Shown here in pieces: positions 40,672 through 44,807 of a stretch of DNA of 64,000 nt. Origin of the DNA: Maribacter ulvicola. Its GTDB lineage: Bacteria > Bacteroidota > Bacteroidia > Flavobacteriales > Flavobacteriaceae. The notes beneath the pieces were generated by a model. That model made no database searches. It saw nothing but the letters and a program-made list of their open reading frames with translations, and was not told the origin of the DNA. The DNA lies in the NCBI RefSeq assembly GCF_900155985.1, contig NZ_FTMA01000004.1, positions 62,001 to 126,000 on the forward strand, read 5' to 3'. Position numbers and translations under genes: made by a program. The first letter of the stretch is position 1. Each line of letters starts with the position of its first letter.

Positions 40672-40822
40672 TTCTTTTTTTTATATGTACTACAACGTAT
40701 CAGTAAGTTTACAAATACACATATTCATGAATATTTAGGTAATGTGTAATGGTTTCGTCTAAATTGCTGGGGTAGTGCACTTTACATGACACTGCAATAT
40801 AAAGAAGTTACGGTATGTTTTA

Positions 40823-40853
40823 TTACGGGTTTCCGTAAAACGGTCAGAAAAAT
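40823..40853. repeat. 31-base exact repeat with TTACGG/CCGTAA hairpin (copy 1)
   Basis: The block starts TTACGGGTTTCCGTAA, a 6-bp inverted repeat with a GTTT loop, then AACGGTCAGAAAAAT. An identical 31-base copy lies at 41953-41983. It opens the larger duplicated unit flanking the lipoprotein gene. Confidence 0.85.
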
Positions 40854-40913
40854 TGAAAGTGATTAACTGCGCTGATTATGAGAAGATTATAATTGAGAGT
40901 AGAGCGTCTAAGA

Positions 40914-41076
40914 ATCCAACCCTTTGGTCCCCTCACAAGAGGGGAGGTTTTGGTTTTTGTTTGCAATTTTTTTGGGTTGAGAGATTTGTTTCTTTAAAAG
41001 TTACTTCGTCTATTTTACCTTAAATGTTTATTCAAAGTCAGAAACTGTTCCCCTCTTGGGAGGGGCTGGGCGGGTG
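40914..41076. repeat. GC-rich inverted-repeat element E1
   Basis: A 163-base element in otherwise A/T-rich DNA. Arm 1 contains the hairpin CCCCTC-ACAA-GAGGGG (40929-40944) and arm 2 CCCCTC-TTGG-GAGGGG (41050-41065). Over about 30 bases the two arms are imperfect inverted copies of each other, like terminal inverted repeats of a MITE. Its inner part is shared with E3 (GTTACTTCGTCTATTTTACC-type block from about 41000). The minus-strand lipoprotein gene ends 29 bases beyond arm 2. Confidence 0.8.
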
Positions 41077-41104
41077 TTTTAGGTTAGTGCGCTGTTTTAG
41101 CAAA

Positions 41105-41803
41105 TTAATTTCTCATTTCGGTTACTAACTGTTTTGTAGCATTTTTTATAAAAATTTCTAATTCATTTCTTTCTACTCCTTCGTAACCTTTTTTATCATC
41201 ATTTGCTTTCTTCTCCCTCTCTCTTCGTAGTTCGCTCATAGATTTAGAAATTACACACCCGTTTGTGCATGGAGTGTAATTAAATTTATAAACGCCGGCG
41301 AATTCATTTGAATTTATCACAACTACTTTGAATTCAACCGATGCCCCATATTTTTGGTAAGAGTGTGACAATTCAATTCTTTCTCGATTTTTTTGGTCAT
41401 AATATTTATTAGTTTCATACATGACTTGAGGATTTAATTTAGTTAATTCAATAATTAAGTCAGTATCAGATTTTTCTTTAAGTTGTTTATAATCAATATT
41501 ATTTTCATCATTTTCTATAATCTGATTAAATAGTTGTCTGTCTCTAACTATAAATCCACTTGATAAAAGTTGATTTTCGATTGCATTAAAAAGATAATCA
41601 TTATTGTCTTCTTCTGTAACGTTCATTGAAGATTCATTAACTCTTAAAACAACTTTTGGGTTTTTGTTTTCATTTAAAAAATGTTTCAATGATTCTGTTC
41701 GTATGATATCGTCGTCTTTTTGAGAGAACTTAAGTGTCTTAGTCACTGCGCAGTTTGTAAGGAGCAAACAGGAAAGAGCTAATAAATAATAGTGATTTTT
41801 CAT
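41105..41803 (-). CDS. Hypothetical lipoprotein between duplicated repeat units
   Basis: The ATG at 41803 starts the lipoprotein signal (NHYYLLALSCLLLTNC, acylated Cys near residue 18) and gives 232 residues. The mature domain (LFNAIENQLLSSGFIVRDRQLFNQII, DTDLIIELTKLNPQVM) resembles the fold of CsgG/LpoB-like periplasmic lipoproteins, but the match is by pattern only. A CxxxC (YTPCTNGCVIS) near the end may form a disulphide. The gene is enclosed by two direct copies of the repeat unit (40823-41076 and 41953-42330). Confidence 0.7.
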   Translation of the reverse strand: MKNHYYLLALSCLLLTNCAVTKTLKFSQKDDDIIRTESLKHFLNENKNPKVVLRVNESSMNVTEEDNNDYLFNAIENQLLSSGFIVRDRQLFNQIIENDENNIDYKQLKEKSDTDLIIELTKLNPQVMYETNKYYDQKNRERIELSHSYQKYGASVEFKVVVINSNEFAGVYKFNYTPCTNGCVISKSMSELRREREKKANDDKKGYEGVERNELEIFIKNATKQLVTEMRN

Positions 41804-41952
41804 TTTAATTTCTGTTTTAATAGTTTCAATAATATTTATGGATATAAGCACCGAAATAGATTTCAGTGTTATTTAGACATTTTGAAAAAACTCAGTAAAA
41901 GGAGTTAATCTCTTTTGTACCCGCAAAATAAAGACCTTCAATTTGCATTTTC

Positions 41953-41983
41953 TTACGGGTTTCCGTAAAACGGTCAGAAAAAT
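41953..41983. repeat. 31-base exact repeat with TTACGG/CCGTAA hairpin (copy 2)
   Basis: Identical over 31 bases to 40823-40853. Further homology follows in both copies (ATAATTGAGA-TAGAGC-TCTAAGAA leading to arm 1), so the repeat unit is longer than this exact core. Confidence 0.85.
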
Positions 41984-42040
41984 ATTTAGGTTGCCTGCTA
42001 TGGGGCGTGGAGGTTTATAATTGAGAATAGAGCATCTAAG

Positions 42041-42330
42041 AACCCACCCCTTTGATCCCTTCACAAGAGGGGATGTTTTCGTTTATGATTGTGGGTTTTT
42101 TGCTTGCTTGGGAGTTTCGTTTCAACAACAGCTATTTGGTATGTTTTATCTAATTAATATCATACAGGTCAGAATCTGTTCCCCTGCCTAGAGTAGAGGT
42201 TTTCGTTTATGATTGAGGATTTTTTGCTTGCTTGGGAATTTGGTTTTTATAGGAGTTACTTCTTCTTTATCTAAAAAGCTTATTTCAAGTCAGAATCTGT
42301 TCCCCTCTCGGGAGGGGCTAGGGGTGGGTT
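42041..42330. repeat. GC-rich inverted-repeat element E2 with an internal partial copy
   Basis: Arm 1 at 42041-42074 (AACCCACCCCTTTG then CACAAGAGGGG); arm 2 at 42298-42330 with CCCCTC-TCGG-GAGGGG (42302-42317) and GGCTAGGGGTGGGTT. Between them a partial copy (42168-42235) repeats GTCAGAATCTGTTCCCCT and the phrase TTTTTTGCTTGCTTGGGA twice, showing an internal duplication. The next minus-strand gene stops at 42333, touching arm 2. Confidence 0.8.
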
Positions 42331-42332
42331 CT

Positions 42333-42557
42333 TTATTCTATAATTTCATAGTCAATACTAAGTTTTCTAAAAGCTCTTAAAGCTGAACCGGAGTTTTTAT
42401 CGCCGATTTCAATATCTACCGCATCACCTTCTAACAATATATCTGTAAGTTCACTGGCGAGCGAATCACTAATGTTCAATGAAATCTCGGAAATACATTG
42501 CGCTATCGCTCTTTTGTCCGGTTTTGCTGCATCACATGATAATAAGTTTAATTTCAT
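42333..42557 (-). CDS. Small hypothetical protein
   Basis: A 74-residue cytosolic protein. It has a helix-rich start (KPDKRAIAQCISEISLNISDSLASELTDILL) and an alpha/beta end (GSALRAFRKLSIDYEIIE) that faintly recalls the ribosomal L7/L12 C-terminal fold. No family is recognised. The stop codon abuts arm 2 of E2. The lack of overlap with other genes and normal amino-acid composition favour a real gene. Confidence 0.6.
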   Translation of the reverse strand: MKLNLLSCDAAKPDKRAIAQCISEISLNISDSLASELTDILLEGDAVDIEIGDKNSGSALRAFRKLSIDYEIIE

Positions 42558-42763
42558 AGTTATAATTTATACATGCAAGATACCAGTGTTGGGAGAGGTA
42601 ATGCGTATTGGTATGTAATTATTCAATTTTGGTCATCTATTGTTCCCTTTTTTTTTTTGGGAGGGCATCGGGCTAGGTCATTTGTGAGTTGGAATAATGT
42701 ATGCATAATCGTGTTTTAGAACTTGGTGAGGGCTACTTTGTTTTTAAACCCTGAACACCTACG

Positions 42764-42930
42764 AACCCATCCCTTTGGTCCTCTCCCTAGAGGAGAGGCT
42801 TTCGTTTCTGATGTGAGTTTTTTAGCGAGTAAAGATTTTGGTTTATAAAAATGTTACATCGTCTATATTACCTTAAATGTTTAATCAAAATCAGTATCTG
42901 TTCCCCTCTGAGGATAGGCTAGGGGTGGAT
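42764..42930. repeat. GC-rich inverted-repeat element E3, overlapping the DUF559 gene end
   Basis: Arm 1 at 42764-42799 (GAACCCATCCCTTTGG, then CTCTCCCTAGAGGAGAG); arm 2 at 42897-42930 (CTGTTCCCCTCTGAGGATAG, then GGGGTGGATT). The inner block is nearly identical to that of E1. Arm 2 supplies the last ~13 codons and stop of the minus-strand DUF559 gene. Confidence 0.78.
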
Positions 42931-43298
42931 TCTTGTTCTAATTTCTCAATTAATTGTTTTAACTCATTAATAACTAACGGCAAGTTATTTTTTACATCAG
43001 TATCTAAAAACCTTACAGCAGTTATACCAAATGATTCAAGACGAGTTTGTCTTCGTTTGTCTTTTTCTGGATGCCCTGGCTTAAAATGAATACTGCCGTC
43101 TACCTCGATTGCTAGCTGAAGGTCTTTGCAATAAAAGTCAACAATATACTGGTCAATAGGTATTTGTCTACTAAACCTCTGACCCAAGTTTCTACCTTTA
43201 ATTTCTCGCCATAGGGCAATTTCACCAAAGGTCATGTTGTTTCGTAATTCCTTAGCATACACAACTAAATAAGGATGGTATGGTATAATCTTTCTCAT
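42891..43298 (-). CDS. DUF559/Vsr-like endonuclease domain protein
   Basis: The ATG at 43298 is chosen over an upstream GTG; 135 residues. It matches DUF559: RNNMTFGEIALWREIKGRNLGQRFSRQ, PIDQYIVDFYCKDLQLAIEVDGSIH, RQTRLESFGITAVRFLDTDV. The catalytic pattern is that of the Vsr/PD-(D/E)XK fold (E in TFGE, D in YIVDFY, E-D in AIEVDG). DUF559 proteins are probable DNA nickases or endonucleases of unknown role. The C-terminal tail (QESTPSLSSEGNRY) is encoded by arm 2 of repeat element E3, so the gene end was recruited from the repeat. Confidence 0.85.
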   Translation of the reverse strand: MRKIIPYHPYLVVYAKELRNNMTFGEIALWREIKGRNLGQRFSRQIPIDQYIVDFYCKDLQLAIEVDGSIHFKPGHPEKDKRRQTRLESFGITAVRFLDTDVKNNLPLVINELKQLIEKLEQESTPSLSSEGNRY

Positions 43299-43368
43299 CT
43301 TTGACACTAACTCGTTATTCCTTATTTAAATAGATAGTTATGGGTTTTGTGTAATTATTACTTGAATT

Positions 43369-44643
43369 TTATTTTTCATTCTTATAAATAATTCCGTTTT
43401 TCATAACAAACTTCACATTCTCTAAAGTAGAAATATCATCAATAGGGTTTGCATCTACTGCAATAATATCTGCCAGTAAACCTTCTTTAATTTCGCCACG
43501 ATCAGTAAGTCCTAGCATTTCTGCACTATTTGTGGTGGCGGTTTTAATTGCTTCTTTAGCGCTCATGCCGCATTCCATCAATGCTGTGAATTCAATGGCA
43601 TTTTTACCGTGAGGTATAATAGGAGTGTCCGTACCAAAAGCAATTTTGACATCTGCTTTTATAGTTTTTATAAGGTTTTGTTTGGCAATAGGCATTACAT
43701 AGTTTGCTTTGCCTGCCATTACGGGATCCATTTTATCTATCATAGGTTCTATGATAGTAGCTAGACCTCTTGTTGGAACTAAATACACACCTTTTTCTTT
43801 CATTAGTTGAATGCCTTCATCATCTATAATTGATCCGTGTTCAATAGAATAGACACCAGCTCTTATTGCTTCTTTAATACCCTAGGTACCATGTGCGTGG
43901 GCAGCTACTTTAATATGATGTCTAGAGGCTTCATCTACAATGGTTTTCATTTCTTCGTTGCTTAGCTGTTGAGCTCCGATGGCATCTTCCATAGAAAGAA
44001 CACCTGCAGTAGCATGCATTTTAATAAATTTCGCACCATGTTTGATTTGATATCTTACAGCCTCAATAGCATCATATTTTCCATTGATGATTCCGTCGTT
44101 AGGTCCGACAGTTACTAATCCTTCAGCTAAACCCAAAGAAATATCACCGTGTCCGCCATTTATAGAAATCATATGACCCGATGGAATAATTCTAGGTGCA
44201 GCAATCATCCCTTTGTCTGAAGCTTCGGAAACCGCAACATCGATAAGTTCTGGAGTAATATGTAATTGCCCTATACTTCTTATTGTAGTGAAACCTGCCA
44301 TTAGTGTTTTTTCGGCATTGACCACAGCCCTAACAGTTCCTTGACTAGCACTTTCTTTATAGACATAATCCCAACTACCTTTAAAATCGCCATCTAAATG
44401 CACGTGCATATCCATAAGCCCCGGTAATAGTATCTTGCCCGTTAGATCCACTGTTTGAATACCTTTAGGTAGGACCTTCGGATTAATGGATTTTATAACT
44501 CCATTTTCAGTATGAATATAAGCAGGAGAGATTATTTTACCTGTTCTAACATCTAAATACGAATCTGCTTTGATCACTATAGATTGGGCATGAATAGAAA
44601 TTATAGAAGTGAACAATAGTACTAGTAATAAGAGGTTTTTCAT
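43369..44643 (-). pseudogene. Secreted metal-dependent amidohydrolase broken by one amber stop
   Basis: A signal peptide (LLLVLLFTSIISIHAQ) starts a frame that runs to TAG at 43884-43882, in the middle of the family motif AAHAHGT(stop)GIKEAIRAG. It then continues in the same frame to 43369; read through, it is 424 residues with that one stop. Homologues have a Glu there (GAG), so a single G-to-T change explains it. All metal ligands remain: HVH (MDMHVHLDG), a candidate carboxylated Lys (AKFIKMHATAG), His in AAHAHG and SIEHGS, and Asp in AFGTDTP. This is the imidazolonepropionase/prolidase-like branch. The downstream half could start at an internal ATG but would lack half the barrel. Confidence 0.82.
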
Positions 44644-44759
44644 TTGATATATTTGATTTTGATGGTCTTTGTTTGAGCTGGATCATTTTATATGAAAGTA
44701 GTGAAAATTAGTTGTTTACGTTGCTTTTTTTATTGAATAAGTATGTGAATATTATCGCA

Positions 44760-44807
44760 GCACCCACTCCCTTTGTTGCACTCTCTTGAGGGGCTAGGCT
44801 TGGGTTG
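44760..44807. repeat. Degenerate short inverted-repeat element E4
   Basis: CACCCACTCCCTTTG followed within about 10 bases by CTCTTGAGGGGCTAGGCTTG: both arm motifs of E1-E3 are present, but the inner block is lost. It lies about 90 bases beyond the 3' end of the next minus-strand gene, like the other copies. Confidence 0.6.

Follow-up and report, generated by a model that had tools for sequence, protein, structure and literature searches.

Probable mobile elements bounded by intrastrand-triplex motifs and served by DUF559 nucleases in Maribacter ulvicola and other bacteria

Intrastrand triplex motifs (TM, earlier potential intrastrand triplexes, PIT) are the closest described relatives of the repeats treated here. 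According to the available text of Holder et al. 2015 (PMC4666352, in which Hoyne and Maher are cited on such motifs), TM are known from E. coli and over 260 genomes, with many in cyanobacteria; they fold as triplexes in vitro, as shown for TM_ECO; they have two loop types and form inverted pairs five times in K-12, 23 copies being described; and its authors report them as unlinked to transposons, phages or plasmids. (The main text of that paper contains no word starting with "nuclease" or "DUF", and no "ycjD".) A 64,000-nucleotide stretch of the Maribacter ulvicola genome (contig NZ_FTMA01000004.1, positions 62,001 to 126,000; "the window" in what follows) carries short elements, here called E, that surround a gene for a DUF559 nuclease. 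E and its relatives share with TM a hairpin plus third strand, the second loop TTA of type A and inverted pairs of two types. They differ in their link to DUF559, whereas TM, as far as that text goes, were described without a mobiliser, in-frame insertion or covariation with an enzyme. Judged from sequence, these repeats probably form a family of mobile elements with intrastrand-triplex units as their ends and the DUF559 nuclease as their enzyme.

Several other systems invite comparison. Repetitive extragenic palindromes (REP) and bacterial interspersed mosaic elements (BIME), with their REP-associated tyrosine transposases (RAYT; together, REPtrons), resemble the present case in having inverted hairpin pairs and arrays, a nuclease gene with its own units on either side, and a unit type matched to enzyme type; the differences are that the enzyme here is PD-(D/E)XK (Vsr-like) instead of HUH-Y1, that the units have a mirrored third strand and lack GTAG, and that the enzyme gene lies inside the inserted unit. 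IS200/IS605 elements (see in part the available text of PMC6006769) likewise have subterminal hairpins, differing left and right ends and, as far as the eye can tell for the present elements, no target duplication, but the window's genome has no HUH transposase match. Rickettsia palindromic elements lie in frame within protein genes and CGTC repeats are said to have no dedicated transposase (available text of PMC3733652); as in-frame palindromes they are alike, and their sequence differs from that of the units. I-Bth0305I (an EDxHD homing endonuclease) and Vsr share with DUF559 the fold and part of the sequence profile; here, on the other hand, no intron or intein is recognised, no mismatch-repair context is seen, and the ends are hairpins or triplexes.

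The ends were compared, by hairpin and unit criteria of our own definition, in 80 named DUF559 loci, the best 80 of 578. Read 5' to 3', a unit consists of a pyrimidine arm, a short loop, a purine arm, a linker (mostly TTA or CTA, otherwise a second hairpin) and a G-rich strand. This last strand repeats the purine arm in mirror order, G being retained and A rendered as A or T. Examples are CCCCTCC..GGAGGGG TTA GGGGTGG, CCCCTCT..AGAGGGG TTA GGGGTGT, CCCCCCTT..AAGGGGGG TTA GGGGGGAT and CCCCTCCTT..AAGGAGGGG TA GGGGTGGTT. As read from its letters, the strand obeys the pairing rules of an antiparallel purine-motif triplex, in which G faces G and either A or T faces A, and the units have what defines TM/PIT: a hairpin with a mirrored third strand in the purine-motif code. 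Among 129 end hairpins from 79 loci, 101 have a mirrored inner strand (permuted third strands: mean 42, maximum 52 in 300 runs); the same loose rule finds 28 on the outer side and 66 in direct order. When 100 units are aligned on G alone, the base opposite A is T 116 times, A 85, G 13 and C 8. A Watson-Crick-type reading of the third strand as a direct repeat of the purine arm was rejected: under a stricter test of 119 informative units, mirror order does better than direct order in 71 and worse in 3, with 45 tied, and counting by distinct arm (n=36) gives 28 better, 1 worse and 7 tied.

The first-pass annotation of this locus, which described the ends as hairpin palindromes, overlooked the third strand and the fixed orientation; a plain palindrome is ruled out, since the third strand covaries, and the ends are triplex motifs. 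They can probably fold into three-stranded DNA. Some units may instead be G-quadruplexes, structures that require neither a pyrimidine arm nor mirror order.

The elements of the window and the DUF559 gene among them are as follows.

E1: 40908..41083, plus strand; left unit 40918-40945 (points left), spacer of ~105 nt, right unit 41050-41076 (points right).
E2a: 42038..42199, plus strand; left unit 42038-42073, right arm 42179-42199 decayed.
E2b: 42160..42333 (left limit approximate), plus strand; overlaps E2a; right unit 42302-42326, which is CCCCTCTCGGGAGGGG CTA GGGGTGGGTTCTT.
E3: 42763..42935, plus strand; left unit 42763-42798, right unit 42903-42935, coding for the DUF559 C-terminus.
E4, an internally deleted copy: 44761..44806, plus strand; left terminus 44761-44771, right unit 44781-44806.
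DUF559 gene: 42891..43298, minus strand; 135 aa from the ATG at 43298, open reading frame (ORF) open from the GTG at 43307; PF04480, E-value 1.5e-26.

All four elements lie where they had been placed before, with the amendment that E2, taken for a single element, is double (E2a and E2b overlapping). E1, E2 and E3 can be aligned from end to end, together with the spacer, and are pairs of units; the right unit of E3 codes for the last 13 residues of DUF559, ESTPSLSSEGNRY, and its stop, as the first-pass annotation had read it. With as many as 3 mismatches allowed, TGTTCCCCTCNNGGGAGGGGCT has 3 matches in the window and 0 in 100 shuffles, and a strict unit scanner finds 2 units (20 shuffles: mean 0.1, maximum 1), the remaining arms of the window being imperfect. 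In the 4.51-Mb genome, blastn finds four strong E copies, all at 102.9-104.9 kb of contig C8 around the sole full DUF559 gene; the next match is a lone E at C9:145.1-145.3 kb (E-value 0.0025), seen as a unit pair, followed by E4 (E-value 0.06) and further matches at E-values of 0.1 to 10. A pattern specific to one arm type undercounts elements, because arms vary between lineages. A 36-nt direct repeat (97% identical) stands at 40818-40853 before E1 and at 41948-41983 before E2, so that the duplicated segment may exceed E.

The window's DUF559 protein scores 92.9 bits against PF04480 (gathering score 20.6). In an alignment of 40 rows, E61, D63 and H67 are invariant and D50 is nearly so; the fold, nearest to I-Bth0305I and Vsr among the families listed for comparison (families missing from that list are not counted as excluded), and the conserved acidic core are those of a Vsr/EDxHD-type PD-(D/E)XK nuclease. 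In Caulobacter without a cytosine methyltransferase, according to the available text of PMC12907096, an SOS response requires a DUF559 protein.

In 74 of the 80 loci a unit stands no more than 600 bp from DUF559, a far higher share than the 33 of 451 seen for the remaining ORFs there; judged by record titles, these loci span Bacteroidota, Cyanobacteria, Chloroflexi, Patescibacteria-type metagenome-assembled genomes, Calditrichaceae, Planctomycetota and others. Nor are hairpins equally abundant where DUF559 is missing. Across 199 genomes of the family, a generic hairpin pattern occurs 1113 times against 671 for its reversed control in the 49 with a standalone DUF559, and 872 against 956 times in the 131 with none or only a weak match (p=1.5e-10 between these groups); the 19 genomes with other DUF559 forms give 142 against 106. 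A large excess in a single genome is confined to 13 of the 49 and 6 of the 131. Standalone and other forms were sorted by hand (bits, open-frame length), weak PF04480 matches of ~22-30 bits (mostly over profile positions 66-108) were excluded as another family, and some of the counted genes carry an internal stop (e.g. in genomes G208 and G211). Host phylogeny was controlled for only by taking nearly one genome per genus, by a test within a single genus, and by comparing DUF559 types that share a genome. In that single genus, the window's own (36 genomes), 19 of the 22 genomes that have standalone DUF559 contain a specific unit pattern, as do 2 of the 14 that lack it (Fisher p=2.6e-5); none of the 36 has a match to the reversed control of this pattern.

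Arm sequence goes with DUF559 type, a check that the first-pass annotation had proposed. The three exceptions in the genus (G205, G214, G221) have another DUF559 type adjoining units of another arm type, and different arm types stand beside different DUF559 types within one genome. On a tree of 101 DUF559 proteins (95 classed by arm; many forks unresolved; the internal-stop rows L155 and L291 excluded), arm class changes 40 times, whereas 500 shuffles average 67.6 changes and never fall below 61; the 28 rows of the window's family alone show 13 changes, against a shuffle minimum of 15. One set of loci weighs against a general partnership: a scan of viral contigs yielded only 18 loci with DUF559 relatives (L337-L354), and a unit is near 3 of these and absent from the vicinity of the other 15.

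E is an outward-pointing pair of units, and its spacer hardly varies in length among the copies of one locus. Most free-standing DUF559 genes have inward-pointing units around them (on both sides in 39 of the 80 loci, on one side in 21 more), because, in the loci read in detail, the gene sits between two E. DUF559 domains inside other genes mostly lie within an outward pair (6 of 8 loci with units on both sides, plus L163 and L295). Inward units also occur there (L015, L026, L297), and with such mixed layouts it is only at recG that the rule of orientation can be called firm.

Insertion is best seen at recG. Between anchors in this gene, 17 congeners have 870 nt (4 genomes), 435 nt (11) or 462 and 459 nt (2): four filled sites with a 435-nt in-frame insert that carries DUF559, eleven empty sites and two in-frame scars, the pattern by which a transposable element is recognised. 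At either extremity of the insert stands the third strand of one of its two units. No target-site duplication is visible by eye at the junctions, at ~76% identity between the species, where a very short one is possible. The two intermediate alleles retain about the first 17 nt of the left end but no more than a few nt of the right, and read as scars of excision or internal deletion. A different genus has an insert at the identical RecG position.

DUF559 also follows the (NW)IGxSxGA segment of LeuRS in 11 loci, in 9 of which FTTRPDTIFGV stands at most 55 residues downstream, and lies within MetH (3 loci) and a HemD-like protein (5 loci); Pfam confirmed one host each of HemD, MetH, RecG and LeuRS. 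Other host names, namely HisD, HisF, AroK, QueG and DinB, are presumed from sequence. The LeuRS copy L164, with no detected unit and no EVDG motif, looks like decay after insertion. The LeuRS ORFs of L164 and L160 also contain extra in-frame pieces (HSELDSES-type, SPDPSQGGE-type) that look palindrome-coded, and LeuRS may therefore be a repeated host of such elements. In a further group (L112, L115 and L125 from three Pedobacter; L110; L106), DUF559 is fused in frame and N-terminally to another protein, which resembles HisF, shikimate kinase and QueG, respectively, through proline/glycine-rich linkers resembling unit-coded ones.

Such host sites also fit a homing-type element, in which DUF559 would cut an empty conserved site in an essential gene and repair would copy it in, the triplex ends serving only as in-frame linkers or repair stops. 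The nearness of the fold to I-Bth0305I and Vsr, and the occupation of identical LeuRS, MetH and RecG sites in different genera, speak for homing. We nevertheless consider it unlikely, as it leaves unexplained the E copies and arrays that lack DUF559, the triplex code, and the match of arm type to DUF559 type.

A second E locus, directly behind a terminator-like hairpin, is empty in two congeners (G230, G217), holds about one E in several and more in G224; the window's own genome was rejected as a clean empty site there (812 nt as against 742 and 746). At the locus of the window, regions from 20 congeners have DUF559 in 14, all with E, E alone in 2 and neither in 4; gene order differs among several of them, and array copy number is strongly variable. 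E or E-like arms are present in all of 17 further regions, picked because blastn had matched them, and DUF559 in two.

This variation in copy number between congeners could arise if triplex-prone repeats expanded and deleted by themselves, through replication slippage and breakage, DUF559 being carried along or acting as a repair enzyme that fragile sites attract; the available text of PMC4666352 ties such motifs to instability. That account, to which we give little credence, does not predict distant E with empty orthologues, DUF559 within a discrete 435-nt insert, or a single genome in which each DUF559 type has its own arm type beside it.

That a RAYT/Y1 transposase moves the units as REP-like repeats, with DUF559 a mere neighbour, is very improbable. 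The logic of REPtrons, with inverted repeat pairs around a nuclease gene, is alike (available text of PMC3733652 and PMC6006769), the nuclease gene here having a unit of its own within the 600-bp limit in the 74 loci noted above. RAYT were first mentioned for other phyla; they occur in this family too, in that 72 of the 199 family genomes match PF01797 (Y1), but the window's genome yields 0 matches at an E-value of at most 0.001. Moreover, hairpin excess tracks DUF559 both without Y1 (16 vs 111 genomes, p=1.6e-5) and with it (33 vs 39, p=1.8e-4), Y1 without standalone DUF559 brings no clear excess (39 vs 111 genomes, p=0.054), GTAG or its complement lies within 8 nt of the hairpin foot in only 1 (outer) and 4 (inner) of 129, and it is DUF559 that the recG insert contains. 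The system resembles REP/RAYT, and in part a homing element, and by these tests is not a REP/RAYT system. The proposal of a REP/RAYT-like repeat with an unrelated nuclease is supported, having survived the refutation tests set with it; as a merely non-autonomous repeat E was undervalued, because the DUF559-carrying form inserts as a unit.

That E is a terminator or the recombination site of an integron-like cassette array is most improbable. Its position at gene 3' ends and the varying gene order between copies in congeners speak for it; against it stand its lying behind an already present terminator-like hairpin and the lack of any recognised recombinase, including the tyrosine recombinase IntI, among the ORFs at 37-48 kb of the window (seven Pfam-scanned). 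E was also tried as a known RNA family and rejected, with no Rfam match in 10 loci.

Under the mobile-element reading, the moving unit would be two outward-pointing units with third strands outermost. With DUF559 inside, it would be an autonomous form able to sit in frame in genes; without, it would be the short E, spreading and forming arrays around a free-standing DUF559 gene and at some distant sites. When the element becomes single-stranded (lagging strand, repair), each end could fold as a triplex, to be recognised by the cognate Vsr/I-Bth0305I-like DUF559 and cut in or close to the third strand; the element would then be excised or copied, and joined, leaving no visible target duplication or a short scar. 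The sequences themselves show the architecture, the association, the covariation, the insertion, the empty site and the scar, whereas folding in the cell, the cutting of folded ends by DUF559 and the route of joining are what we infer.

E. coli may provide a link to TM. Its K-12 ycjD is a DUF559 gene (167 bits) with a type-A-like unit ~165 bp beyond its 3' end, a degenerate hairpin at the stop codon and a different palindrome on the 5' side; of 5426 E. coli genomes, 3333 contain at least 80% of the ycjD region. No clean empty site came to light at fabI-sapF (L302, L306): strain S4 carries an efflux operon (regulator, RND and MFS genes) in place of the ycjD and triplex unit of K-12, and the beginning of this operon also stands there in strain 33E. 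No link between DUF559 and triplex repeats was found in the open literature searched, a search whose reach stopped short of subscription papers and outside preprints.

Two further genes share the locus.

p74, a 74-aa gene: 42333..42557, minus strand; between E2b and E3, and among E copies in several congeners.
Lipoprotein-like gene (by eye): 41105..41851, minus strand; between E1 and E2.

Neither product has a Pfam match; blastn matches of p74 also occur at places other than E-copy regions. The amidohydrolase gene next to DUF559 (43369-44643) is broken into ORFs 43882-44643 and 43369-43803, the first ending at the stop 43882-43884, and their Pfam parts are consecutive pieces of one family.

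On balance we lean towards a wider proposal: that DUF559 is the missing mobiliser of bacterial intrastrand-triplex repeats, a transposition class of its own that reads a three-stranded fold at each end and gives rise to autonomous in-frame elements in essential genes and to BIME-like arrays, in many phyla including E. coli (YcjD and TM-like units). If so, DUF559, a common domain of unknown function, would acquire a function, triplex repeats previously described without a mobiliser would have one named, and this would be, to our knowledge, the first transposition system with a triple-helix end signal. The nuclease domain within the LeuRS, MetH, RecG and HemD of a number of Bacteroidota would then be a selfish element surviving in frame.

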